Assembly (NCBI GenBank): GCA_017501245.1 | Contig: JAFVXI010000023.1 | Location: 1-42,155 of the forward strand | Length of the DNA: 42,155 bases | Direction: 5' to 3' | From: Clostridia bacterium | Lineage (GTDB): Bacteria; Bacillota; Clostridia; Oscillospirales; CAG-272 | In this document: positions 3,007-36,282 of the stretch, one piece after another | Numbering within the stretch: the stretch's first letter is position 1 | Layout of the letters: every line of letters begins with the position of its first letter | The notes under the pieces: generated by a model | Seen by the model: the letters and a program-made list of their open reading frames with translations, nothing else | Told to the model about the DNA's origin: nothing | Database searches by the model: none | Position numbers and translations under genes: made by a program

Positions 3007-6000
3007 TTATCCGGCGTAGGTTATAGTCAGCTCGGCGTTGTCATCCGCAAGCGAGCCTACCGTGATGCGGTAGGGGATCTCGGTGCCCCCATCGGTGACG
3101 AGGCCGCTCACGCTGTCGCCCTCTCCAAAGATGGAGTGCCCCTTGATGCTCACAAGCTCGATGAGGTTGAACGCCGTTCCGTATTCCTCGTCGGAGGGGT
3201 CGGTGTTGTTGTAGTAGGGATCGTAGTAGGTGACGTCGCCCTGCTTATCAGCGTAGAGCGATGCGTTAACGTGGTAGATGACGATGCCCTCGGTCTCGAA
3301 GTAGCCTGCGTTCTCCCCCTCGTTAAGTCCGATATTGCGGTAGTAGGTTATGATGAAGTATTCCTGATATAAGCCGAGCGCATCGTCCCAGTTTGCCGCA
3401 AGCAGGATGGTGTCACCCGAGGTGATAAAGGCACCGAGCGACATCTCAAACCTACCCTCACCGACGATAAGCCTCGAGAAGTCCAGCCAGCCGTAATGCA
3501 TCTTCGTAAATGCGTTATGGTCGCCCGCCTCGGAGTCCATCACGTCGCGCCCGTCCATAGGCGAGCCGACCTTCGCCGTGTCGTAGTAGTCGTCCGCACC
3601 AAGCACGTGGCCAAACTCGTGGATGTAGGTGTAGGTGTTCATAGCGCTCTCGTCATCAAAGCCGCCAAGCTCGTCCTCGTGGAGGAACTGGAAGGACGCC
3701 CACATATAGTCGTTAGCGCTGACGTCGTCGTAGGTGTAGTAATTATCCTCTGCGTCGGTGTATATGTTCCAGTATCTGTATGCCCTGTTGAAGTTGTCCT
3801 CGCTGTCGATCTCAAGAGTGTTGATGATAACGACGGCGTCTATCATCCCGTTGCCGTCGCTGTCAAAGGCAGAGAGATCCATTCTTCCCTCAAGGTATCT
3901 GAGCGCCTCGTCGATGACCATCTGATCGCCGATGGCGGTCTCGGCACCGAAGTATTCCATCGTCTGCGCCTCGTAGTAAGCGCTGGATTCTGAGGGCATA
4001 AACCACTCGTCAAGCACGGTGATATCCAGGGTCAGCTGACCCCAGCTCGACGTGAAGTAGTAGTCGTAAACGCTGTGATAATCGTTTACTCCCCCCTCGA
4101 GGAACGCCGCCTTTATCGCATCTATCGAATAGCCGCGGCTCTCGGCAGTTATATCCGAAAACTCAACGGGGATAACCAGCACTGCAGGCGAGCCCACCGT
4201 CGGGCATCCGTCGAGATAATATCCGGTTTCGGTAACGTTTTTGGCATATTCCGCCTTAGTCAGGTCAACGTCGTGGACGCCGTCAAGCCCCTCGGGCAGC
4301 CCCTTTCCGTCGTTGGTCAAGACGCCCTCGACGGCTGTGGTCGTGTCCTCCGGCTCCTCCTCGGGCTCGGTCGAAAGCTCTGAGTAGATATAAACGTCAA
4401 CCCAGCTTACCCCCTCGTAGAGGTAGTATGAGAGGTCGATAACGACGCCGCCCTTTTCATAGGTATACCAGGTGTCGCCGTAGTCGTCCTCGTAGGCTGC
4501 GGTCCTTTGATAGCCTGCGGCATCGAGTATGCCGAGGTAGGCTTGGAAGTGAGCCTCGGTGTTCCCCATCGTGTAGAAGTTGAGCCCGTGCTCGTAGTCA
4601 GCCTCCTCGTAGTAGCCCTCGATATAGTATTCGTTATTGGGGAGGAAGGGGATTACCTCGCCGATATAGTCGGTGAAGAGAGCCTTATCCTCCTCACTGA
4701 ATTCATTGTTGGCAAAGGGCTCGCCGGTTCCAAATCTTGCGGTGTTTATAGCGGCGATAAGCGATGCGTGATCCATCGCTCCGACACGGCTGAAGGTGAT
4801 AACGCCGTCCGCATTGACAATCACCGTCATCGGGTATGAGCCTTTGCCGCCAAGAGCGGAGTAGTAGGCGTCGTAGCTTGCGGAAACGGGGGTATCCATA
4901 GCGAAAACGATATCCGAGTCGGGGTAGTTTTCTTTTATATAATCCTCCGCTTCACTCGTATTATCGTAGTTATGTATCGCCAGCACGGTCAGCTCGTCGG
5001 CATATTCGCTTGCCACGTCGTCGAAGTGCGGCATCTCGATAAGGCAATACGGACACCACGTGCCCCAGAAGTTGATAACAACGGTCCTGCCCTTATAGTC
5101 CTCGAGGCTCACGCTGCCATCCTTGCCTATCAGCTGAAGGTCCATGACGGGTGCGGTATTTCCGACCTTATTTCCAACCTCGGGCTTAGGCTCGACGTCG
5201 TCCGGCTCCTCGTCCGGGTCGGTCGAGAGGGAGGAGTAGATATAGACGTCTACCCAGCTCTCGTTTTCATAGAGATAATAGGAGAGGTCGACGACGACGT
5301 CCTCCTTCTCGTAGGTATACCAGGTGTCGCCAAAGTCGTCCTCGTAGGTGGCTGTGAGCAGATAGCCGTCAAGCTCAAAGAGCGCACGGTAGAGCGTAAA
5401 CTGCGCCTCGGTGTTTCCTATCGTATAGAAGTTCAGCCCGTGCTCGTAGTCTGCTTCCGCAGTGTAGCCCTCGATATAGTATTCATCGTTAGGCAGGAAG
5501 GGAATGACCCTGCCGATATACTGTGTGAAGAGTGCCTTATCCTCGGCAGAGAAGTCGTTATACTTATAGGGTGAGTCCTCGCCGGGGTCTTCGGTGCCGG
5601 GCTCGTCGGTGTTGCCGCCGCCGGGGTTCTCGTTCCCGCCGGGCTCGTCGCCGTCCTGATTTCCGCCACCCGTGTTGCCGCTTCCGCCGGTTCCGGGCTG
5701 CTCGGGGATGGGGTCCTCCGTCGGCCTTGCAAAAACGTCGATTATCCATTCTCCGCCGTAGCTATAATAGGAGATATCGACAGTCGTTCCGTCCTTTTCA
5801 AGCTCGTGCCACTCAGCGCCCTTGTCGTCGCGGTAGGTGCGCACGGCGGTGTAGCTGTCGAATTTATCGAGATAAGCCTCAAACTCCTCCTTCGTGTTTC
5901 CGATGGTGTAGTAGTTAACTCCGTCGGAGAAGTCGCCCTCCTCGGTGTAGCCCTCGAAGTAGTATTCGTTCGTCGGGCAGAAGGGAATGACCCTGCCTGC

Positions 6001-6162
6001 GTAGCGGATAAGTATATCCGCCTCGGAGGAGCTGAACGCCTCGTAGGTGTAGCCCTCGTTCGTGTCGGGTGTATCACCGAATAATCCCTCTATCACCGTG
6101 CAAGAGGTAAACAGCAGGGATATAGCCAATATCAGTAAAGCAAGCTTTATTAGCCTTTTCAT
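3007..6162 (-). CDS. Lipoprotein with three repeat domains, a TlpA-like thioredoxin domain and an M6-type metallopeptidase
   Basis: 1051 residues. The N-terminus is a lipoprotein signal (basic start, hydrophobic core, LLFTSC with the lipidated Cys at 21), so the protein should sit outside the membrane. Order: repeat domain 1 (about 43-146), a Gly/Asn/Pro/Asp-rich linker (150-198), repeat 2 (204-311), a TlpA/ResA-like thioredoxin domain (334-478) with active site WCPYC (Cys370, Cys373) and a cis-Pro region GSYPMT, repeat 3 (488-595), then an M6 (immune inhibitor A-like) peptidase from about 640. Peptidase features: zinc motif HEFGHVLGADD with His848, Glu849, His852 and Asp858; a Ca-loop-like DSDGNGMID at 767-775; and DVMDSEAGDHNAF after the zinc site. 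Repeats 2 and 3 are very similar (VIPFLPN, EYYIEGY, YTxGNTE, GDTWYTYEK, SWVDVYIYS); repeat 1 is divergent. AGGAGG-type ribosome binding site. A thioredoxin domain joined to an M6 peptidase is not an architecture I know. Confidence 0.9.
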   Translation of the reverse strand: MKRLIKLALLILAISLLFTSCTVIEGLFGDTPDTNEGYTYEAFSSSEADILIRYAGRVIPFCPTNEYYFEGYTEEGDFSDGVNYYTIGNTKEEFEAYLDKFDSYTAVRTYRDDKGAEWHELEKDGTTVDISYYSYGGEWIIDVFARPTEDPIPEQPGTGGSGNTGGGNQDGDEPGGNENPGGGNTDEPGTEDPGEDSPYKYNDFSAEDKALFTQYIGRVIPFLPNDEYYIEGYTAEADYEHGLNFYTIGNTEAQFTLYRALFELDGYLLTATYEDDFGDTWYTYEKEDVVVDLSYYLYENESWVDVYIYSSLSTDPDEEPDDVEPKPEVGNKVGNTAPVMDLQLIGKDGSVSLEDYKGRTVVINFWGTWCPYCLIEMPHFDDVASEYADELTVLAIHNYDNTSEAEDYIKENYPDSDIVFAMDTPVSASYDAYYSALGGKGSYPMTVIVNADGVITFSRVGAMDHASLIAAINTARFGTGEPFANNEFSEEDKALFTDYIGEVIPFLPNNEYYIEGYYEEADYEHGLNFYTMGNTEAHFQAYLGILDAAGYQRTAAYEDDYGDTWYTYEKGGVVIDLSYYLYEGVSWVDVYIYSELSTEPEEEPEDTTTAVEGVLTNDGKGLPEGLDGVHDVDLTKAEYAKNVTETGYYLDGCPTVGSPAVLVIPVEFSDITAESRGYSIDAIKAAFLEGGVNDYHSVYDYYFTSSWGQLTLDITVLDEWFMPSESSAYYEAQTMEYFGAETAIGDQMVIDEALRYLEGRMDLSAFDSDGNGMIDAVVIINTLEIDSEDNFNRAYRYWNIYTDAEDNYYTYDDVSANDYMWASFQFLHEDELGGFDDESAMNTYTYIHEFGHVLGADDYYDTAKVGSPMDGRDVMDSEAGDHNAFTKMHYGWLDFSRLIVGEGRFEMSLGAFITSGDTILLAANWDDALGLYQEYFIITYYRNIGLNEGENAGYFETEGIVIYHVNASLYADKQGDVTYYDPYYNNTDPSDEEYGTAFNLIELVSIKGHSIFGEGDSVSGLVTDGGTEIPYRITVGSLADDNAELTITYAG

Positions 6163-6228
6163 TTTTTTAAAACCTCCGTTTCGCCTCGGGGTGCCTTCTG
6201 CATATTAATGCCCGCCACCCTTAAGTTG

Positions 6229-6257
6229 ATTATAGCATAAGGCTTTTTATTTTGCAA
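6229..6257 (-). promoter_or_regulatory. Promoter for the thioredoxin-M6 lipoprotein
   Basis: On the minus strand: TTGCAA (6257-6252), 17-bp spacer, TATAAT (6234-6229), about 65 bp upstream of the start codon. Confidence 0.75.
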
Positions 6258-6320
6258 TAAAATATTTTTTCACACGTGTATATGTACGAGCCGCCCTCGG
6301 TTGATGGACATTGTCATCAA

Positions 6321-6353
6321 AAGCAAAGAGAGGTCGGAAGCTCCCGACCTCTC
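6321..6353 (-). terminator. Terminator after the phosphofructokinase gene
   Basis: Ten-bp stem GAGAGGTCGG (6328-6337) / CCGACCTCTC (6344-6353), 6-nt loop. On the minus strand it is followed by TTTGCTTTTG. It lies about 85 bp beyond the stop codon. Confidence 0.75.
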
Positions 6354-6436
6354 CGGTAAAATCTCGATATATGACAACTATAATTGTCATTACACGGCAA
6401 AGAAAGCCGTTTTGTCATCAAAAACGCCGCACTGCC

Positions 6437-7666
6437 TTACTTGTCGATGAACAGATGCCTCGGCATTCCGTCGACCATAAAGGGTGAAAGCTCGCCGATG
6501 ATCAGGGGGCGTGCATAGCTGTCAAACGCCGCTGTAACTCCCGTGCCCTCGGGTGTTATCCATTCGTCGGGCACGACCTTCTCCTTGTTTGCGATTTTTT
6601 CGATGTCGCAAATGCCGGTGACCATCGAGTAGGGTGCGTCGGATATGCGGTTAAACACTATCATCTTGCCCGTCTCGCCGTCTAGCGCCGCAACTGCCGC
6701 ATCTGCTCCCGCCATATAAGCCTCGGTTATGTCACGTCGTGAGACGAGGTGTGAGGCACATCTCTGGAGGGTGGACAGCACGATACCTCTTGATTTGAGG
6801 CCAGTGCTCTCGGTCATAAAGTCGGAGAGATAGAGCGCAGTTCCGCCGAGGAGCTTGTGTCCGAAGGCGTCCGTCACGGTGCTTTTCTTGTTAGCCTCGC
6901 AGACGTATTTTCCGTCAGACGTCTTAACTCCCTCGGAAACGGCTACGATCACCGCACGGCTCTCCCGCCTCTTTTCCTCGACCTGCTTGACGAAGGTCTC
7001 GTGGTCAAACACTCTCTCGGGCAGATATATGAGGTCGGGGCCCTGGCAGTCCTCTGCCTTCGAAAGTGATGCAGCCGCGGCGAGCCAACCGGCGTTTCTT
7101 CCCATTATCTCAACTATGGTAACCGAGTCGTTCGGGTAGGTCTTTGCATCCCTGATGATCTCCTTCATCGCCGTGCCGATATACTTCGCCGCTGAGCCGT
7201 AGCCGGGGGTATGGTCGGTGCAGTCCAGATCGTTGTCGATAGTCTTAGGCACGCCCATAAAGCGGATGTCCGAGCCTATCCTTGCGGCAAAGCGGGAGAG
7301 CTGCATGATCGTGTCCATCGAGTCGTTTCCGCCGATGTAGAAGAAGTATTCGACGCCGAGCTTCTTGAGTATGGAGAATATCCTCTCGTAGACCTCGGGC
7401 GATTTTTCCGCCGAGGGCAGCTTATAGCGGCAGGTGCCGAGGAAGGAGGAGGGCGTCCTCTTGAGCAGCTCAATGTCAAGATCGTTTTTGATATAGTCGG
7501 AGAGGTCGACGTAGCGCTCGTCGATTAGACCCTCTATTCCGTTTCTCATACCGTAGACGTGTGCGCAGCCGCCGTCCTTACAGGTCTTGAAAACTCCCGC
7601 CAGGCTGGAGTTGATAACAGAGGTCGGACCGCCCGACTGTCCTACCATTACGTTTCCTTTGATCAT
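6437..7666 (-). CDS. pfp: 6-phosphofructokinase, pyrophosphate-dependent type
   Basis: 409 residues. Interconverts fructose 6-phosphate and fructose 1,6-bisphosphate in glycolysis. Phosphoryl-donor choice can be read from two positions. GGNDSMDT (residues 112-119) has Asp115 where ATP enzymes have Gly, and PKTIDND (140-146) has Lys141 where ATP enzymes have PGTIDND. Asp and Lys at these sites mark pyrophosphate-dependent enzymes. The N-terminal GQSGGPTSVINSSL and MGRNAGWLA are standard family motifs. Ribosome binding site AAGGAG lies 8 bp before the ATG. Transcribed alone from a near-consensus promoter and ended by a hairpin. Together with ppdK at the other end of the window it points to PPi-linked glycolysis. 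Database labels often say only 6-phosphofructokinase; the PPi call is an inference from residues. Confidence 0.93.
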   Translation of the reverse strand: MIKGNVMVGQSGGPTSVINSSLAGVFKTCKDGGCAHVYGMRNGIEGLIDERYVDLSDYIKNDLDIELLKRTPSSFLGTCRYKLPSAEKSPEVYERIFSILKKLGVEYFFYIGGNDSMDTIMQLSRFAARIGSDIRFMGVPKTIDNDLDCTDHTPGYGSAAKYIGTAMKEIIRDAKTYPNDSVTIVEIMGRNAGWLAAAASLSKAEDCQGPDLIYLPERVFDHETFVKQVEEKRRESRAVIVAVSEGVKTSDGKYVCEANKKSTVTDAFGHKLLGGTALYLSDFMTESTGLKSRGIVLSTLQRCASHLVSRRDITEAYMAGADAAVAALDGETGKMIVFNRISDAPYSMVTGICDIEKIANKEKVVPDEWITPEGTGVTAAFDSYARPLIIGELSPFMVDGMPRHLFIDK

Positions 7667-10058: not shown

Positions 10059-11641
10059 TCAGCCCTTCTGTGCCTTTTTCTTGTTTCTGAACCAGATGAA
10101 GGCGTAGAACGCCGCCATAAGCGCAAGGCCCGTTCCGAGCGTGACGAGAGCAGAGAGGCCGTAGCCAAGTCCTGTGCTTACCACCGCACCTGCGATAAGA
10201 TAAGCCACGAAGGATATAGCGGCGCAAACGGTAGCGTAGGGAAGCTGGGTTTTTACGTGGTCGATGTGGTTGCACTGTGCGCCCGAGCTCGCCATAATGG
10301 TGGTGTCCGAGATGGGAGAAACGTGGTCGCCGTATACCGCACCCGCAAGGATCGCCGAGATAACGAGGATAACGCCCGGCTCAAGCGATGTTCCGAGAAT
10401 GGAGGTGGCAACGGGGATGAGAATGCCGAAGGTGCCCCACGAGGTTCCCGTAGCGAAGCTGATAGCGCACGCCGCAAGGAAGAAGATAGCGGGGAAGAGC
10501 ATCGTCGCAAGTCCGCTCTCTGCGAGCGCCTGCATATTCTCCTCGACGAAGCCCTGAGCGTCAAGATATCCGCCCTTAGAGCCCATAACTCCCGAGAGCG
10601 TCCAAGCGAAAACGAGGATGAGAATTGCAGGAACCATCGACTTGAAGCCCGAGGTCAGGCTCTTCATGCATTCGCCAAATGACATAGCCTTAGATGCGAT
10701 AAAGACAACAAATGTTATGATTAAGGCGATAACCGAGCCAACTCCGAGCGAAAGACCCGCATCGCAGTTGGAGAACGCCTCGATAATGTTCGATGACTGA
10801 AGAGTGCTGTCCATAGCCCCGGTGTCCCAGTTGTAGAAGAAGCCGTTGTAGATCATAGAGCCGATGCAGCAGGCGATGAGGATGACGATGGGAGCGATCA
10901 GCTGCCAGACCCTTCCGCCCTCCTTTACCTCGGTGGAGATGTCCTCGCTCGGCAGATCGGTCTCTCCTGCGAGCAGGTCGCCCGTCTCGTCTGCTATCTG
11001 CTGGTTTTTCTTCATCTTGCCGAAGTCTAGCCCGAGGAGGGTGACGCAAAGCATAGAAACGATCGTGAGGATAGCGTAGAGGTTGAAGGGGATGGTCATA
11101 ATAAAGGTGATGATCGCATTTTCCCCATCGAGGAAGCCGCTGACGGCAGCCGCCCAGGAGGAGATGGGTCGATGATGCATACGGGCGCCGCAGTCGAGTC
11201 GATTATGTAGGCGAGCTTCGAGCGGGAGATACCCCTCTTGTCGGTGACGGGTCTCATGACCGAGCCGACGGTAAGGCAGTTAAAGTAGTCGTCAACGAAG
11301 ATGAGGCAGCCGAGTGCGATGGTTGCGAGCAGCGTTCCCTTCTTCGAGGTGATCTTCTCCGCCGCCCACTCTCCGTAGGCACGGGTGGCACCCGTTGCGG
11401 AAAGAATGACTGCAAACACGCCAAGCACGACGAGGAATACGAGGATGCCGCCGTTCTCACCGAGCTTCTCTGCGATCAGCATGATAATATCCGAAAACGC
11501 ATTCAGGATATTGCCCTCTGCAAAGAGGAGGGCTCCGACGAATATACCCGCAAACAGCGAGGGGTATACCTGCTTCGTCACCAGTGCAAGCACGATGGCA
11601 ACGAGCGCGGGCAGGAATGCCCATAAGGTTGCTTCAAACAT
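10059..11641 (-). pseudogene. NhaC-family Na+/H+ (probable lysine) antiporter, single-base frameshift
   Basis: A polytopic membrane carrier split into two overlapping frames. The N-terminal frame (11641 down to about 11170) runs 157 residues to ...STAAPVCII and then turns into nonsense. The C-terminal frame continues as PISSWAAAVSGF... for about 370 residues to the stop at 10059. The span is 1583 bp, one short of the 1584 needed for 527 codons plus stop. One extra C in the CCC run at 11166-11168 (minus sense) restores a continuous DPISSW reading. No slippery heptamer is present, so programmed -1 frameshifting is unlikely; a real deletion or a sequencing error remain. The gene sits behind a lysine riboswitch, and NhaC-type carriers under that element are predicted lysine transporters (often called LysW). 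Ribosome binding site AAAGGA before ATG 11641. Confidence 0.88.
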
Positions 11642-11718: not shown

Positions 11719-11736
11719 ACGGTCAAAAAAGACTCG

Positions 11737-11903
11737 GCATGAATAGCGCTCCACGAAAACGTGACAGCCGAATGCATATTCTGCAAGCGGCCAACCTCTG
11801 CCCCCGGGAAGAAGGGGAAAAGATTTCGGCGACAGCTCCTTTCGCACAGGGCGTCTCCCCGCCCACTTTGTGCTACTCTTAGATATCGCGCCTCTATCCT
11901 GTG
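11737..11903 (-). ncRNA. Lysine riboswitch (L box) aptamer
   Basis: Read on the minus strand this 5' leader carries the conserved blocks of the lysine aptamer in order: GGATAGAGGCGCG, AAGAGTA, GCGAAAGGAGC, GTCGCCGAAA, CAGAGGTTGG, TTCGGCTGTCACG and GGAGCGCTATT, closing P1 by pairing GATAG with CTATT. Length is about 165 nt, usual for the class. A hairpin with a T tract follows before the carrier gene, so high lysine should terminate transcription. I know the class by these core blocks; covariation was not computed. Confidence 0.93.
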
Positions 11904-11908
11904 CGACT

Positions 11909-26815: not shown

Positions 26816-29368
26816 TTATCTCTTCTTGAATATCGCAAGAAGATCGCCGAAGCTCTTTTTCTTGATGACGAACCAAACTAGGGCAAATCCGCCGACGCCA
26901 AGGACGGCAACCGAGCCGACGACGATGCCGACTATCGCACCCGTGCCGAGGCCGCCCGCCTCTAACGTATCAAGTCCGAAGCCGCAGATGTCGCAGGTGC
27001 CGTTTTCGTTTGAATCGACGTGTGCGCCGACGTGCTGCTTTTCGCCGCAGGCGCACTCCTTGCAGTGGCCACCGTCATCGGTCTGTCTCCAGTCGCCGAA
27101 GCTGTGTACGTGGGGAGGAAGCTCGTAGGAGCATACGTCGCAAAGGCTGTTATAGTCTGCGTCTATATGAGCCGCAAGCTCCGCCTTGTCGGTGCATTTG
27201 CATTCATGCCAGTGGCTGCTTGCGTCGGTCTGCCAGTCGGTGCCGTAGCTATGCACGTGGACGATCTCGGCCTCGCAGACGTCGCATATCTCGTCGCCAC
27301 CCTCATCGGGATGCTCGGCGAGGTCTGTCTTTTCGCCGCAGGCGCACTCGTGCCAGTGGCTTTCGTTGTCCGACCTCCATAGATCGGGGTAGTAATGAAC
27401 GTGAGGAAGCTCAAAGGAGCAGACGTCGCAGACGTCGTTGTGGTCGAGGTCGGTGTGCTCTCCGAGGTCCTGCTTGTCTGTGCATTCGCATTCATGCCAG
27501 TGGGAGGTTGCGTCCTTTTTCCATTCTGCGCCGTAGCTATGCTCGTGTGGGATGTCCTCCCAGATGGCGTAGAGGATCGCATCCTTCATAGGTGTGAAGG
27601 TCTCGCCCGTGAGCAGCTCGCCGTCAAGTGCGAGAGCCCAGCCTAGGAACCTCTTGCCCTCGGGCGCCTCAAAGTTACATTCGGGGATAGTCAGCTCTCC
27701 GTAGAACTGCTCCTCCGGCAGCATCTCGCCCGTGCCGCCGTTGGCGTTATACTCTATCCTGTAATAAGGGTAGATATGAAGGTAGGAGATCATATCGACG
27801 TTTTCTTTTTTATATTCGATAGGATTGTCGCCTTCGACGTTTGTAAAGGCTGCAACGTCGTAGCCGTTATTGTAGAGCGAAAGAGTGGGGAAGCTGCTGA
27901 CCGCCTGATTTCCGATGAGCTTGATATCCGCTCCGATAAACGAGGGGTAGAGAACGGCGTTAGTCGTCATTACGCACGTAGACACGTATTGTGCCTCAAG
28001 AGGACCCGTCGCAGTGACGTAGAGGGCGCCGTGCGTAACGGTAACGCTGCCTGCGTTCGCAATAACTCCAAATGCCGCACCCTCGCCGGACGGATCGGCC
28101 AAGGCGGTGATCACGGTTTTTGAATCCGAGATCGCCACGTTGTCGCCCTGAATACCGCCCGCCGAAATGCCGGAGGCGTATATCTCGATCTCGGATGAGC
28201 TTACCGTAACGTCGCCGCCCTCAGGCATATTTCCGAGAGCGATAGCCGCTTCCTTTCCGCCGGAGCGAACGTCGAGCTTAAGCCTTGTGTTCGAGATGTT
28301 TACGGAGGCATAGGAGCAGATTCCGAGAGCTATCTCCGAGGTGGATCTTGACGTGACCTGGAGCTCCGAGTCCTTGAGGTTTATTCCCACGGCGGAGTAT
28401 ACGGCATATGCTACCGTGCCGGTGCAGTTGATCTTTCCCCTGGCGCCGTTAAAGTCGATCTTGCCGCCGTTAGAAAAGATGCCAAATCCCGTCGAGAGGA
28501 TGTCAAGCTCGGTGTTTTTAAACTCAACTCCGCCGCTCACCTCTATAGCGTAAGCGTCCTCAACTCCAAGAGCATTCAGCTTTATGGACGAGTCCTCGAC
28601 TACAAGCTTTCCGCCCTCGTTTAAGATGCAGGGTCCATTGGTGGTGACATCAAGAGACGAGCTCTTGATCCTGATCGTGCCACCTGCCGCTTCAATGCAT
28701 GCAAGTGCTTCGGAGGATGATGACCTTATGACCGAATTATCTATGGTTATATCACCCGAGCCTACACCTATACCCGCACCGTTTTGGGCGCCACTTAAGA
28801 TCTGGGAGTCCTTGACGGTAACATCACCGCCCATAGCCCAGGAGTAGGCACCGTAGAGCGTAGCTCCCGAAATGTCGAGCCCGCCCGACATAGAGGTAAA
28901 GCCCAACGTGGGAAAGGACATCTCGCAATCCCTGACGGTAATATCGGAGATAGCTGCAATACCGGCGCCTGATTCTATCTTAAGGCTTCCGTCACCGATG
29001 ATAGTGAGATCGCCCATAGAAAGTGCGGCGTAGGAGGTGTCGGTGTCACCGGGGTCTCCGACGGCGATCCTGTTTTCGCCCTCGAGCCTGATCTTTAAAC
29101 CGCTCGCGGATGAGTAGATGCCAACCTCCGGCGAGTCGACCATATCTATCGTGTAGCCCGTGGTTATATCTGCGCCCGTCAGCGTCAGCGTTGCGCTCGC
29201 CGCATCGTAGGACACGGTGCCGTCGCCGAGAACGTCTGGGGCATTATCCTCAGTAACCTCAACGCCGCCTACGTATAGGCCATAGGTTGGGGTAACGGCT
29301 GAAGCCGAAATGACAATAGATGTTAACAAAATCACTAAAATTACAGTAAATAAAGCAAGCTTTTTCAT
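26816..29368 (-). CDS. Large membrane-anchored surface protein: beta-repeat region, InlB-type repeat, Cys/His modules
   Basis: 850 residues from ATG 29368, chosen because AAGGAG lies 6-7 bp upstream; an in-frame ATG at 29404 lacks a site and would bury the signal peptide. Signal peptide 1-24 (ends SASA). Residues 25-530 are short repeating strands (DSxIxI, SGGVEFKNTELDI, NVAISDSKTVIT), a parallel beta-helix-like pattern. An InlB/Listeria-Bacteroides repeat lies at 537-605 (YNANGGTGE...GKRFLGWAL...ILYAIWE). Four modules of about 45 residues follow (608-800), built on H-x-H-S-Y-G...SHWHECxCxxK...H-x-D...CDVC. A membrane helix (808-834) ends in a Lys-rich tail, so the bulk is outside and no LPxTG motif is present. 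Probably an adhesin or binding protein; ligand unknown. Confidence 0.88.
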   Translation of the reverse strand: MKKLALFTVILVILLTSIVISASAVTPTYGLYVGGVEVTEDNAPDVLGDGTVSYDAASATLTLTGADITTGYTIDMVDSPEVGIYSSASGLKIRLEGENRIAVGDPGDTDTSYAALSMGDLTIIGDGSLKIESGAGIAAISDITVRDCEMSFPTLGFTSMSGGLDISGATLYGAYSWAMGGDVTVKDSQILSGAQNGAGIGVGSGDITIDNSVIRSSSSEALACIEAAGGTIRIKSSSLDVTTNGPCILNEGGKLVVEDSSIKLNALGVEDAYAIEVSGGVEFKNTELDILSTGFGIFSNGGKIDFNGARGKINCTGTVAYAVYSAVGINLKDSELQVTSRSTSEIALGICSYASVNISNTRLKLDVRSGGKEAAIALGNMPEGGDVTVSSSEIEIYASGISAGGIQGDNVAISDSKTVITALADPSGEGAAFGVIANAGSVTVTHGALYVTATGPLEAQYVSTCVMTTNAVLYPSFIGADIKLIGNQAVSSFPTLSLYNNGYDVAAFTNVEGDNPIEYKKENVDMISYLHIYPYYRIEYNANGGTGEMLPEEQFYGELTIPECNFEAPEGKRFLGWALALDGELLTGETFTPMKDAILYAIWEDIPHEHSYGAEWKKDATSHWHECECTDKQDLGEHTDLDHNDVCDVCSFELPHVHYYPDLWRSDNESHWHECACGEKTDLAEHPDEGGDEICDVCEAEIVHVHSYGTDWQTDASSHWHECKCTDKAELAAHIDADYNSLCDVCSYELPPHVHSFGDWRQTDDGGHCKECACGEKQHVGAHVDSNENGTCDICGFGLDTLEAGGLGTGAIVGIVVGSVAVLGVGGFALVWFVIKKKSFGDLLAIFKKR

Positions 29369-29437
29369 TTTTATCTCCTTGACTCCGCATACGCCACGGT
29401 GCATAAAGCTCGTGCGCTGTGCGGATCTTCTTTCTCC

Positions 29438-31802: not shown

Positions 31803-34800
31803 TTATTCGGCAGCGTCAGAGGACGCACCGACGCTTATTTTCTTTCTGATAACGAACCAGAAGAGGCAGAAGCCTCCGCCGCCGAGGAGAAGCACGGAGC
31901 CGATAACGATCAGCGCTATCCAGCCGCCGCCAAGTCCCTTCGACATATTGTAGCCGCAGACGTCACACTTCTCGTCGCCGTCAGCGTCGCTATGCTCGCC
32001 CTCATCGACCCTCTCGCCACAGCCGCAGAGCTTGTGGTGTCCTGCCTCGTCGCTGATCCACTCAACTCCGCCCTCGTGTCCGTTGGCGGGTGCAAGCTCC
32101 GCACCGCAGACGGTGCAGGTCTGTGCCTCGGTGCAGGTCGCTGCCGCACCGGGAGTGTGTATGCCGGTAGCCTCTGCCAGGACGTCGCCGCAAACCGTGC
32201 AGGTCTGATCAGCGCCGCAGGTCGCCGCCTCGCCGGGTGTGTGTCCCTTCTTTGCATCAAGCTCAGCGCCGCAAACGGTGCAGGTCTGTGCCTCGGTGCA
32301 GGTTGCGGGGTCACCGGGAGTGTGGTTTCCGGTAGCGGGGGTTAATTCATCGCCGCAGACGGTGCAGGTCTGTGCCTCGGTGCAGGTTGCGGGGTCACCG
32401 GGAGTGTGGTTTCCGGTAGCGGGGGCTAATTCATCTCCGCAGACGGTGCAGGTCTGTGCCTTGCCGCAGGTCGCCGCCTCGCCGGGTGTGTGTCCCTTAG
32501 CGGTGTCAAGCAGCTTGTGGCAGACAGTGCATTCCTGGTCGTCGGTGCAGTTTGCAGGTGCGCCGGGGGTGTGGATCGTTTCTCTCTCAAGTCCGCAGTT
32601 CGGGCAGACCTCAGAGCAGGCAAACTCATAGAAGTGTAAGTCGGAGGAGCCGAGGTAATTATCTCTTACGTAGCCGCAGACGGTACAGGTGTCGTCGCAA
32701 GGGGTGTTGTTGCCCCAGTCGTGGCCGGAGATAAACTGCTTGGATTCCTCGTAAGCAGGACACTCGGGGTCCTGGCAGTACTTGTAATGCTCAAATTCGT
32801 TGTGATCGTACTCATCGGCGTAAACGTGCTTATGGTCGTTCTCGTCTACGTAGTATGCCTCGAAGGTGACGCCGCCCTCGGTCGTGACGTTATAAGCGCC
32901 TGCGAGAAGGGTCATTCCTCCGTCGGTCGTCCAGCCGGCAAACTTCTTGCCCTCGGGTGCTGTAAACTCACAGTCGGGAAGGGTAATGACTCCGAGCTTT
33001 ACTCTCTCTTCGATGCTCGCGCCGTCGCCCTCTCCGGGGCTGAAGGTGACGATGGAGTAGGGAAGCTCGGTGGGATAGAAGGACGTGTAGGCGATCAGCC
33101 TGCCCTCGCCGTCGGTGTACGAGTAGATCTCGCTGCCGTTTATAGTAGCGTATACGACGCTGTCAAACTCATAGCCCTCCTTGGCTACGAGGTTGATATA
33201 CACGCCGTAGTTCTTTCCGGCGACGAACCTATCAAGAGGATCCCACTCCTCGTCCGTGTCGTTGTCTACGAAGTAGAATTTCTCTACTGAGTACCAGTCT
33301 CTGTCAAGAGTGATCTTGTTTCCGGGGAAGCTACCCTCGACGGGCTCATCCATTCCGATATATACAGACTCAATAAGCGCCTTAGCGCAGTCAAATCTGA
33401 GCGTCACCTGCGCCATATCCTTCTCATCGGCTGTGCCGTATGCGCTGACGCTGACCGCATCGAAGCCGCCCACCTTGACGGAGAGCTGATCTGCGGGCGC
33501 AAGCTCAAACTTACCCGCATTGCCGTTCAGGTATTTATCACTCGCCACGACGATGCGAAGCTCGTAGGTGTGTCCGTAAACGAACTTATCCTCGGTCTCC
33601 ATGATCTCATCTGCCGTAACGTCATACCATACGACGGCGTCGCCGACGGGAGCGAGGTCGAAGCCGTGGCCGCCCGCAAAGTTGGTGAAGTTGGGCTTGT
33701 TACCGTTTATGGGCTGAACGTCCCCTCTTAAAGCAATGCTCGAAAGCACGCCGCCGTTACAGGGTGCAAAGGAGATATTGACCATAGCCAGGGTAGGATC
33801 GCCGAATATGGGGGTTATCTCGACGTCGCCCTCGTTAGCCGTAGCGCTGACCACGTCTCCGAAGCGATAATCGCTGGTAGATCTGATGAAGAAGGTAAGA
33901 TCGTAGCTGATGCCGTTTTCAAATACGTAGCTCTCGTCGAGCGCTTCGCCTATCAAGTTAGCCCAGCGGATGCCGCCAACGAAGCCGTACTGTGCGCCGC
34001 CCGTAACAGCCTCGTCGGTAACGAGAGAGTAAATGCTGTCGCCCATAGTAGGTGCGGTGAAGATGGGGTTCTGACCCTCGGAGGGGATAGAAATGCCGTC
34101 AAAGCTGACCTCGTCGATGATCTTTGCGTCAATGGAGGCGAACTCATACTCTATATCCACCCTCGTGTCGTGGTAAACTGCGCCGTCGTTGTTCTCGCCC
34201 ATATAGGTAAGCTTGATAGATACCTTTTTTCCGTTTACGTTGCCGCCGATGCAGTTGTTCTCGTCGGCATTTTCAGTGGCGAAGCGGAAGCCCTCGTTGG
34301 CTATGAGAGAGAGCTTTACCTTGTAGCTCTCGCCTGCTACGAACTTCTCGGATGCGCCCATGCTTCTCCACTCGCCGTTATCAAGGGTATACCAGCCGTG
34401 GTCAAGGGAGGAAACGAAGGTAGCGCGGTCGTTCAAGGGGATTATAGCCGTATGAGAGGGAGCGGTCTCGCCTGCAACGGGTGTGGGGATGAACACGCTC
34501 GGTCTGACGCTCTTCTTAGGTATGTTATGGAAATCGCAAAGCACGCTGATGGTCTTTGAATCGGGATTGAGCTCACGGTAGGTGACTCGTGCCGACTCGC
34601 CGTTTATAGTAGCGGTAATGCCGCTGTAATCGGTGCTCTCGCCCGCCCAGGTGAAGTTCCATTCGCTCATGCCCTTTACCTGGAGGTCGATCCTGACGGT
34701 GTAGGATCTGCCGCCGATGAAATATTTTTCGGTTCCTGCGTCAACACCGACGTGATCGTCAAATCCGTAATGATACCACGTGATGCCGACGACCTTATAG

Positions 34801-34997
34801 TCCATAGGGTTTTTGACCGTAACCGACGAATAGTCGCGGGTTACGTCAGCTCCCGCTACGGGAGCGGCGATCGTCAGTTCGACGTCGCTTATCTTAACGT
34901 TTACGCTGTAAGCAAAGGCCGTAACCGCCATCGATGCGACGACGAGAGCTATCGCTAACAGGACGGTAAATGCCGCCAACAATCTTCTTGTTTTCAT
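31803..34997 (-). CDS. Large membrane-anchored surface protein: Ig-like domains, InlB-type repeat, Cys-rich repeat stalk
   Basis: 1064 residues from ATG 34997, which follows AGGAGG; the frame is open to 35297 but that stretch is not coding. Signal peptide 1-29 (AVTAFA). Four or five Ig-like domains of about 120 residues run from 34 to 645; each ends in an FxxGxxYxvxixLxAxxgYxF-type strand pair, e.g. FVAGESYKVKLSLIANEGFRF and FVAGKNYGVYINLVAKEGYEF. An InlB-type repeat is at 648-717, and a His/Cys-rich stalk at 723-1015. Within the stalk a 28-residue unit, with CTEAQTCTVCG and HTPGDPAT, repeats in tandem. A membrane helix (1026-1050) then ends in IRKK and a short tail. It shares InlB repeat, stalk style and C-terminal anchor with the 26816-29368 protein. 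Confidence 0.9.
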   Translation of the reverse strand: MKTRRLLAAFTVLLAIALVVASMAVTAFAYSVNVKISDVELTIAAPVAGADVTRDYSSVTVKNPMDYKVVGITWYHYGFDDHVGVDAGTEKYFIGGRSYTVRIDLQVKGMSEWNFTWAGESTDYSGITATINGESARVTYRELNPDSKTISVLCDFHNIPKKSVRPSVFIPTPVAGETAPSHTAIIPLNDRATFVSSLDHGWYTLDNGEWRSMGASEKFVAGESYKVKLSLIANEGFRFATENADENNCIGGNVNGKKVSIKLTYMGENNDGAVYHDTRVDIEYEFASIDAKIIDEVSFDGISIPSEGQNPIFTAPTMGDSIYSLVTDEAVTGGAQYGFVGGIRWANLIGEALDESYVFENGISYDLTFFIRSTSDYRFGDVVSATANEGDVEITPIFGDPTLAMVNISFAPCNGGVLSSIALRGDVQPINGNKPNFTNFAGGHGFDLAPVGDAVVWYDVTADEIMETEDKFVYGHTYELRIVVASDKYLNGNAGKFELAPADQLSVKVGGFDAVSVSAYGTADEKDMAQVTLRFDCAKALIESVYIGMDEPVEGSFPGNKITLDRDWYSVEKFYFVDNDTDEEWDPLDRFVAGKNYGVYINLVAKEGYEFDSVVYATINGSEIYSYTDGEGRLIAYTSFYPTELPYSIVTFSPGEGDGASIEERVKLGVITLPDCEFTAPEGKKFAGWTTDGGMTLLAGAYNVTTEGGVTFEAYYVDENDHKHVYADEYDHNEFEHYKYCQDPECPAYEESKQFISGHDWGNNTPCDDTCTVCGYVRDNYLGSSDLHFYEFACSEVCPNCGLERETIHTPGAPANCTDDQECTVCHKLLDTAKGHTPGEAATCGKAQTCTVCGDELAPATGNHTPGDPATCTEAQTCTVCGDELTPATGNHTPGDPATCTEAQTCTVCGAELDAKKGHTPGEAATCGADQTCTVCGDVLAEATGIHTPGAAATCTEAQTCTVCGAELAPANGHEGGVEWISDEAGHHKLCGCGERVDEGEHSDADGDEKCDVCGYNMSKGLGGGWIALIVIGSVLLLGGGGFCLFWFVIRKKISVGASSDAAE
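32269..32520. repeat. 84-bp tandem repeat inside the Cys-rich stalk gene
   Basis: Three successive copies of an 84-bp (28-codon) unit; GGTGCAGGTCTGTGCC recurs at an 84-bp step, with CAGGTCTG beginning at 32281, 32365 and 32449. The first two copies are nearly identical in DNA, indicating recent amplification or gene conversion. Confidence 0.85.
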
Positions 34998-35159
34998 TTT
35001 CTCCTCCTTGGTGCTGTGCCTCGGGATGTCTCCGTCAGCAGAGAGTAAGTTTTGCCCGAAGGGTATAGCAAGCGTCCTTGCAGAAGCCTGCACGGCAGCC
35101 GCACTGCGGTATAAGCCGTCAGCCCTGCACACACGTATGCGTGCCCGTGGGATATAATA

Positions 35160-35226
35160 ATTATAACAAAATATGTGCGCCGCGCACCTACCCGCGGGGG
35201 ATAGTTTAGGTATGGGGTGCGGGTAG
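35160..35226 (-). promoter_or_regulatory. Probable activator-type promoter of the large surface-protein gene
   Basis: On the minus strand a TATAAT lies at 35165-35160, but no -35 box is found 16-18 bp upstream. Instead the near-palindrome CTACCCGCGGGGGATAG (35188-35204, plus sense) sits there, centred about 43 bp upstream of the predicted start. CTACCCGC (35188-35195) also has a perfect inverted partner GCGGGTAG at 35219-35226. Confidence 0.45.
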
Positions 35227-35281
35227 TTTTTTAAAAACGGTGCATCGTTTCTCGTAATCTCTGCTGCCCTGCTTGGCAAAT

Positions 35282-35311
35282 AAAAAAGCGGCGGCACAGC
35301 TGTGCCACCGC
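35282..35311 (-). terminator. Terminator after the LuxR-type regulator
   Basis: Minus-strand stem GCGGTGGCAC (35311-35302) / GTGCCGCCGC (35297-35288), loop AGCT, then T6. It isolates the regulator transcript from the surface gene downstream. Confidence 0.9.
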
Positions 35312-35331: not shown

Positions 35332-36282
35332 CTATTTGTCCGAAAGAAGCATAAGCAATTCGTCCTTGCCTCCGACTCCCAGGGCGGAGTAGAGCAGTCC
35401 GACGTGCCACTTGACCGTGTTTTCCGAGATGTGCAGCTCGGCGGCGATCTCCTTCTGGCTCTTTCCGTCAAGTATGCCGTCGAGCATCTCCATCTGCCTC
35501 TCGGTCAGCCTCTTTCCCTTAGGCAATAGGGTCATGACTCTCTCGAGCTTTTCTGCCTTTGGGATGGAGTCAAGCACGATGACTCTCGGCCTTACGACGG
35601 GCGCCTCGGGCAGATCCTCCTTATGCACGTAGTCCTGCATTATCCAATAGAGGAAGAAGAGCATGCCCTCGCTGAGGATGTAGGACAGCGAGAGAAATTC
35701 AAAGTTCCAGCTGACGAACTTCTCGATCAGCCACATAGCGATGTTACATAGCACGACGCCTGCGAGCAGTGCCGCGTGCTTCCTAGAGGACACTCTCCTC
35801 GTGCGCACCGACCATACGATGGTCGCTATCATCATAATGAAATAGGCGAGCACGTAGATGAGGTAGACGCTGTGCAGGGGTCCGTATTCCTTAACGAGCT
35901 TTGCCGCACCGTCGGCGTATTCGAGCCTCACGGAGGTGTAATACCAGGGCAGATAGCCCGCCGTGCAGACCACGCCAAGGACAACTGCACCAAGCGAGCA
36001 GAGCACTGTCGGCAGAGCCTTGCCGTAATTAACTCCCGATATCTTAGCTATCGTCAGAAACATACTGATGAGCAGGAAGATATGCCCGAGGTAAGCAAGC
36101 TTGGTTGCAAAGAGCGCAAGCGACACCGTGTGCGAGAGCGATAGGAGAAGGTATCCGAGGTTAACGATGCATACGCAGGAATACATCACTATGAGCCACG
36201 GCTCCTTCTTGCGTATATTTAAGCAGTATAAAACGAGCAGGGCTGCCGCTACTGCCAGAATTATTCCATATACAATTGCCAT
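35332..36282 (-). CDS. Membrane-embedded LuxR-type regulator with a 7-TM sensor
   Basis: 316 residues, ATG 36282 after a strong AGGAGG. The first 220 residues hold seven hydrophobic segments of the histidine-kinase N-terminal 7TM type (loop GYLPWYYTSVRLEYADGAAKLVKEYGPL between helices 3 and 4 as usual). A short linker leads to a LuxR/GerE helix-turn-helix (about 252-312): LTERQMEMLDGILDGKSQKEIAAELHISENTVKWHV. No kinase or receiver domain is present, so sensing and DNA binding are fused in one membrane protein. It sits directly upstream of, and on the same strand as, the surface-protein cluster, its likely target. The promoter is visible (TTGCTT, 17 bp, TAAAAT). Confidence 0.92.
   Translation of the reverse strand: MAIVYGIILAVAAALLVLYCLNIRKKEPWLIVMYSCVCIVNLGYLLLSLSHTVSLALFATKLAYLGHIFLLISMFLTIAKISGVNYGKALPTVLCSLGAVVLGVVCTAGYLPWYYTSVRLEYADGAAKLVKEYGPLHSVYLIYVLAYFIMMIATIVWSVRTRRVSSRKHAALLAGVVLCNIAMWLIEKFVSWNFEFLSLSYILSEGMLFFLYWIMQDYVHKEDLPEAPVVRPRVIVLDSIPKAEKLERVMTLLPKGKRLTERQMEMLDGILDGKSQKEIAAELHISENTVKWHVGLLYSALGVGGKDELLMLLSDK

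Follow-up and report, generated by a model that had tools for sequence, protein, structure and literature searches.

The window analysed here, a stretch of 42,155 nucleotides making up contig JAFVXI010000023.1 of assembly GCA_017501245.1, comes from a metagenome-assembled genome (MAG), about 73% complete, of an uncultured and probably gut-living Clostridia bacterium. At positions 3007..6162 of its minus strand a single intact open reading frame (ORF), free of N and starting with ATG, encodes a predicted lipoprotein of 1051 amino acids in which two copies of a repeat domain (R1 and R2), a TlpA thioredoxin domain, a third repeat copy (R3) and an M6-like metallopeptidase domain follow one another. 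This architecture appears to be new among the proteins searched and to represent a one-off insertion into an existing family. We hold the architecture and the family assignment with high confidence. The best overall explanation that we can offer, for which we consider the chances to be about even, is that a lipid-anchored M6-like peptidase has captured a TlpA domain which would open disulfides beside the peptidase.

An earlier, sequence-only reading had placed in one polypeptide a lipobox, three repeats of about 105 residues, a WCPYC redox domain between repeats 2 and 3, and an HEFGH zinc motif, and each of these elements was borne out. The repeats R1 (residues 43-146; 5725..6036, minus strand), R2 (residues 204-311; 5230..5553, minus) and R3 (residues 488-595; 4378..4701, minus) align locally with one another with scores of 262-447, as against no more than 79 for shuffled sequences (1000 per pair). 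R2 and R3 are identical at 81 of 108 residues (75%), compared to 48 of 104 (46%) for each of the R1/R2 and R1/R3 comparisons, so that the greater similarity of the second and third copies suspected earlier is confirmed. R2 and R3 also pair in a tree of the repeats (97/61, not a starred branch) and both are followed by homologous acidic tails, LSTDPDEEP and LSTEPEEEP, respectively. Since the two copies pair in the tree and their tails are homologous, the TlpA domain can be said to sit inside a duplicated pair, and the insertion proposed by the sequence-only reading is thus well supported; repeat duplication and TlpA insertion may have occurred either way round. Comparison of the R domain with Pfam yielded no consistent family, the best match being Halo_GVPC (5 of 19 members, best E-value 0.011), while comparison by sequence with the PDB gave a single chance match (E=0.81).

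The distribution of the architecture was assessed through whole-protein searches of 59 near-relative genomes (28 matching), 394 genomes of the order (131 matching) and 395 of the family (134 matching), these sets overlapping and each counting the source genome. The order and family sets were drawn from larger groups with at most two candidates scored per genome, the family counts are among the matches listed, and most matches were to the TlpA domain alone. They were supplemented by a GTDB scan taking in 80 of 318 encoding stretches, from which records very near the source genome may have been left out. No second assembly with the R-TlpA-M6 fusion emerged from the near-relative, order, family or GTDB searches. 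The searches did, however, reveal 20 distinct relatives, read as full frames, in which one to three R domains are combined with an M6 domain (R-M6 proteins); 19 have complete frames, that of L115 being cut at a contig end, and two (L032 and L131) are 87% identical. The window protein belongs among them, having R domains ahead of an M6-like domain in which the Cys of GCPxxG is present. The relatives belong either to the bacterial family of the source organism or to MAGs of gut Clostridia, and for four of the five R-M6 loci from GTDB the sample was gut material from roe deer, yak or sheep.

None of the 20 relatives contains a TlpA domain, as judged by phmmer with the window domain against full frames (E≤1e-4; the L115 frame is broken), and the same holds for seven distant M6 genes lacking R, of which two (L134 and L169) run into a contig end and a third (L135) has a short frame. 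In a sample of the phylum, the M6 model TIGR03296 matched at E≤1e-6 in 25 of 398 genomes (source included), at 30 places; in the 24 other genomes none of the 29 M6 places shared its frame with a Redoxin match (PF08534, E≤1e-4) when the two were compared by eye on contig and coordinates, and the nearest on one contig was some 16 kb away. Titles and abstract openings in the open-access literature gave no relevant report of an M6 peptidase with thioredoxin or of a TlpA-metalloprotease fusion. The claim that the domain order has no described counterpart therefore stands in that the same order is found in no other protein surveyed, but its novelty must be narrowed: only the TlpA insert is new, R plus M6 being an existing unnamed family and the TlpA domain having identifiable kin in NapH-TlpA proteins.

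Within the 59 near-relative genomes, source included, the R domain was matched 16 times, 15 of them in frames also holding M6. The sixteenth is in genome G028, where a contig end truncates its frame of 207 residues; the M6 frame of that genome likewise begins at a contig end, and the two seem to be parts of one gene. Repeat duplications are frequent and often recent in the family, since, of the 12 proteins holding more than one R copy, 7 have a closest pair that shares 69% identity or more (window 75%, L113 69%, L114 86%, L116 85%, L163 91%, L164 82% and L165 73%), the remaining five showing 45-57%. In L114 the two R copies are separated by some 170 residues belonging to none of R, M6 and TlpA, an arrangement like that of R2 and R3 around the TlpA domain in the window protein. 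A further relative, L166 (2417-7258, plus strand, 1614 residues), carries seven stretches of collagen repeats and a BspA-type leucine-rich repeat (LRR) match, the collagen and LRR models exceeding their cut-offs and an OB model narrowly missing its own.

The inserted domain (residues 327-475; 4738..5184, minus), delimited through Pfam, domain limits and the tree described below, matches Redoxin (PF08534) over residues 332-464 with an E-value of 9.2e-18 and 64.9 bits (cut-off 26.6), as well as AhpC-TSA (PF00578) with 59.7 bits (cut-off 26). The WCxxC active site of TlpA/ResA-like oxidoreductases is present as WCPYC, with Cys370 and Cys373 of the CPYC motif encoded at 5044..5055 (minus), and a YP pair stands at what we take to be the cis-proline position. 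The domain is predicted to carry out thiol-disulfide exchange. A CPYC sequence is glutaredoxin-like and less reducing than CGPC.

The ancestry of this domain was addressed with a tree of 119 TlpA domains (phmmer matches of 100 residues or more at E≤1e-6, with copies removed and shorter or weaker ones dropped), of which 83 share their frame with a NapH-like 4Fe-4S part, recognised by phmmer against the NapH of the source genome (E≤1e-10). The window domain falls inside a clade of 99 that holds all 83 NapH fusions (100/99). Its partner there is the NapH-TlpA protein of the source genome (L122:11528-13018, minus), a weak pairing (93/37) in an enclosing group of 13 rows supported at 93/89. These two domains share 55% identity over 150 residues, other rows reaching at most 48% among the matches listed. 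Their homology begins at PEVGNKVG, a little beyond the final membrane segment of NapH-TlpA, and extends almost to the C-terminus of that protein; the 4Fe-4S membrane part of NapH is absent from the window protein, so that the TlpA domain alone is common to both. The simplest reading, which we consider likely, is that the window domain originates from a NapH-type TlpA. The direction of capture would then have been from NapH-type protein to peptidase, and the NapH-TlpA gene of the source genome is a possible candidate for the very gene of origin. The GC content at third codon positions is 0.664 for the insert, 0.72-0.76 for the R and M6 parts and 0.773 for the NapH-TlpA domain of the source genome; thus there is no sign of a very recent copy.

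Among the 83 NapH-borne domains CTPC (33) and CGPC (23) are commonest and two lack CxxC. An aromatic residue precedes the second Cys in 6 of 16 domains of the clade that are detached from NapH, the window included, but in none of the 83 NapH-borne ones (Fisher p=7e-6, a value inflated since the rows are related and not independent). This contrast hints that TlpA domains may change redox role once detached.

Other long TlpA-like frames were seen in passing, outside any systematic survey. Frames of about 860-1090 residues with a TlpA-like domain occur in the source genome (L122:5509-8346, plus, with a weak Ig-like match) and at L040, L041, L043, L064, L068, L076, L097, L102 and L107; in several genomes they lie a few kb from NapH-TlpA on the opposite strand. 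L055, L061, L067 and L096 are NapH-like proteins with two tandem TlpA domains.

The peptidase domain (residues 613-1048; 3019..4326, minus), delimited from TIGR03296 and alignment, matches that NCBIfam M6 model over residues 666-903 with E=2e-20 and 73.9 bits (76.2 was also obtained), short of the curated cut-off of 110.8. We therefore name it M6-like: the M6 peptidase with HEFGH of the sequence-only reading is upheld as regards its zinc motif and significant model match, and is qualified as regards the curated threshold. Among distant relatives L171 passes this threshold with 117.5 bits and four others fail it (84.0-106.1 bits). The Pfam M6 models gave no match to the window protein at E≤1, and an M6 sequence profile gave a single chance match in the PDB (E=0.55). 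Every one of the 14 rows in the M6 alignment matches TIGR03296 at E≤0.01 and has H848, E849, H852, G855 and D858 of the HExxHxxGxxD signature, present in the window as HEFGHVLGADD (residues 848-858; 3589..3621, minus), as well as the Met-turn residue M875. PMC3890501 assigns M6 to subclan MA(M).

A second conserved feature of this domain is Cys653, in GCPTVG (4204..4206, minus), which shortly precedes the first strand of the peptidase domain. It is the sole cysteine of the window M6 domain, the others in the protein being residues 21, 62, 370 and 373, and all 21 R-M6 proteins, that of the window counted, have Cys at this position. Among distant M6 proteins without R, four of the five covering the position have Leu, Leu, Val and Leu there while L133 has Cys; two more do not cover it. 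Most R-M6 relatives have additional cysteines in the M6 domain.

Since the architecture is known from one MAG only, and since the repeats flank the insert on both sides, the question of an assembly artefact joining two genes, raised already by the sequence-only reading, deserves attention. We regard such a join as extremely improbable: both junctions are in frame, the gene contains no N, and the longest stretch of exactly matching DNA measures only 21 bp for R2 against R3 and 24 bp for the thioredoxin part against the NapH-TlpA gene of the source genome, the sole close copy found there, to whose TlpA domain that of the window is just 55% identical.

The explanation that we favour would run as follows. 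The protein would be a lipid-anchored extracellular M6-like metallopeptidase, from a family having one to three copies of R, a domain specific to it, before the peptidase and other modules that come and go. In the source lineage a duplication would have given two units of R plus tail, between which the entire extracellular TlpA domain would have been taken in from a NapH-like 4Fe-4S membrane protein. Anchored in this way, the TlpA domain would exchange thiols and disulfides with protein substrates or neighbouring surface proteins beside the peptidase; disulfide-locked proteins would be opened and then cut by the adjoining peptidase, with electrons supplied by NapH-TlpA or another surface TlpA. 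The catalytic motifs of both enzyme domains are intact. The activity of either, the electron supply and the substrate are, however, predictions from sequence, and disulfide opening beside the peptidase is put forward tentatively, with somewhat less than an even chance of being correct. As to electron supply, a search for the CcdA/DsbD membrane domain (PF02683) found none in the source genome and was positive in 10 of 14 control genomes, which leaves NapH-TlpA as the only candidate outward electron relay seen. NapH itself is described in PMC5449189 as a protein of the membrane whose 4Fe-4S clusters lie on the cytoplasmic side; that paper mentions neither thioredoxin nor TlpA.

Several observations weigh against this explanation. 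With the genome only partly complete a CcdA could be missing. The CPYC dipeptide is unlike the CTPC and CGPC of most NapH-TlpA domains and the window domain could be less reducing than assumed. Its pairing with the NapH-TlpA domain of the source genome is the weak one noted above (Shimodaira-Hasegawa-like approximate likelihood ratio test, SH-aLRT, 37; bootstrap not settled), and that domain is equally close to the NapH-TlpA of L043 (55%, 177 bits) and to the window (55%, 167 bits); identity at this level implies either an old capture or fast change. The peptidase scores below the curated threshold of TIGR03296, the M6 tree leaves it unplaced among its relatives, with no starred set holding the window domain, and the fusion is known from one assembly only.

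Two other accounts of the TlpA domain merit consideration. It might be a further interchangeable surface module that shares nothing with the peptidase but the anchor, serving, for example, to repair or isomerise proteins exported by the cell itself. The readiness with which R-M6 proteins vary their modules (the L114 insert, the collagen and LRR stretches of L166) is consistent with this, as is the occurrence of TlpA domains of the same clade on a peptidyl-prolyl isomerase (PPIase)-like lipoprotein (L130) and in short stand-alone proteins; the aromatic residue seen in 6 of 16 detached and 0 of 83 NapH-borne domains would likewise hint at a redox shift after detachment, but there the relatedness of the rows inflates the p value. 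The location of the domain between two R copies beside the peptidase, rather than at an end, speaks against such independence, which we think rather unlikely. The alternative of regulation in cis would have Cys653 block the zinc as a cysteine switch, with the TlpA domain freeing or protecting it by thiol exchange. Its invariance in R-M6 proteins as against its replacement in 4 of 5 distant ones, and its being the only cysteine of the window M6 domain, would suit such a role, and the bacterial metzincin mirolysin has a cysteine switch in a short pro-segment, according to the parts of PMC6949598 consulted. Yet 20 relatives have Cys653 without a TlpA domain, which is therefore not needed for whatever this cysteine does. 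Moreover, GCPTxG differs from the matrix metalloproteinase motif PRCGXPD and from the cysteine-glycine motif of mirolysin, as these are given in the parts consulted; L133, which lacks R, has the cysteine too; and in most relatives the further M6-domain cysteines make a disulfide role possible. We consider regulation in cis improbable. A combined version, in which a TlpA arm fed by NapH-TlpA in a cell without CcdA both reduces substrate disulfides and resets a Cys653 switch, making a redox-gated surface peptidase, seems to us very improbable; were it true, extracellular proteolysis would be coupled to the electron surplus of the cell.

If the TlpA domain is active, the peptidase that we favour as captor would possess its own disulfide-handling tool, useful against disulfide-rich proteins. 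The arrangement suggests how the outer domain of a membrane electron relay may pass to an exported enzyme unrelated to it. It also points to an R domain without a Pfam entry, to an M6-like family with an invariant cysteine, and to a possible CcdA-independent means by which uncultured gut Clostridia send reducing power to their cell surface.

A signal peptide and lipobox, LLFTSC, with Cys21 as the lipidation candidate, are recognisable by eye (6100..6162, minus) and suggest a surface location; the mature protein has a computed mass of about 115 kDa and an isoelectric point near 4. Upstream, on the minus strand, lie a predicted ribosome-binding site, GGAGG (6173..6177, by eye), a promoter-like site from a consensus scan, TTGCAA-17-TATAAT with TG ahead of the second hexamer (6229..6257), and a terminator-like hairpin of 12 pairs (6327..6354) that separates the gene from that for phosphofructokinase (6437-7666, same strand). 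Between 2700 and 7900 seven promoter-like sites were found, compared to a mean of 4.3 (sd 2.3) in shuffled sequence, and seven terminator-like sites (mean 4.3, sd 2.2). Given the hairpin after phosphofructokinase, its own promoter-like site and GGAGG, the gene is probably its own transcription unit. A functional reading based on an operon with phosphofructokinase and the other neighbour, an aldehyde dehydrogenase gene, was set aside in view of the hairpin and the promoter-like site. When five window neighbours were compared with the few kb around relatives, a short-chain dehydrogenase recurred near the R-M6 genes L117 and L119 and an antiporter near the distant M6 gene L133; the others recurred nowhere in these stretches.

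Elsewhere in the window, a lysine riboswitch (11736-11904, minus; Rfam RF00168, 91.8 bits) precedes a Na+/H+ antiporter gene (10059-11641, minus) which is seemingly frameshifted into overlapping frames at 11096-11641 and 10059-11180, the second matching PF03553. Two ORFs on the minus strand, 26816-29404 and 31803-35297 (862 and 1164 residues), are exported-looking by eye, with Cys-containing repeats and a C-terminal hydrophobic stretch, and have no Pfam match at 1e-5. Beside them, at 35332-36282, is encoded a membrane protein with, by eye, a LuxR-like C-terminus.

With M6 (immune inhibitor A-like) metallopeptidases, as modelled by TIGR03296, the window protein shares HExxHxxGxxD, the Met-turn methionine and a significant profile match, but it falls below their cut-off, and the R domains, the family-wide Cys653 and the TlpA insert lie outside the model. 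It resembles TlpA/ResA-type extracytoplasmic thiol-disulfide oxidoreductases in exceeding the PF08534 and PF00578 cut-offs and in having WCxxC, yet its domain is embedded in a peptidase and has the CPYC dipeptide. The TlpA domain of the NapH-like 4Fe-4S protein of the source genome, at the C-terminus of that protein, is similar in sequence and has the same start; unlike the window protein, however, it belongs to a membrane electron protein, has CTPC and is accompanied by no peptidase. A further parallel is the L130 protein (5681-7477, minus), an FKBP/trigger-factor-like PPIase from another genus of the same family, also a lipoprotein by eye, whose fused TlpA domain falls in the same clade and shows WGTWCPYC. 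There the partner is a foldase and not a peptidase, making L130 a possible all-in-one extracellular foldase, and the TlpA domain is positioned towards the C-terminus rather than between repeats.

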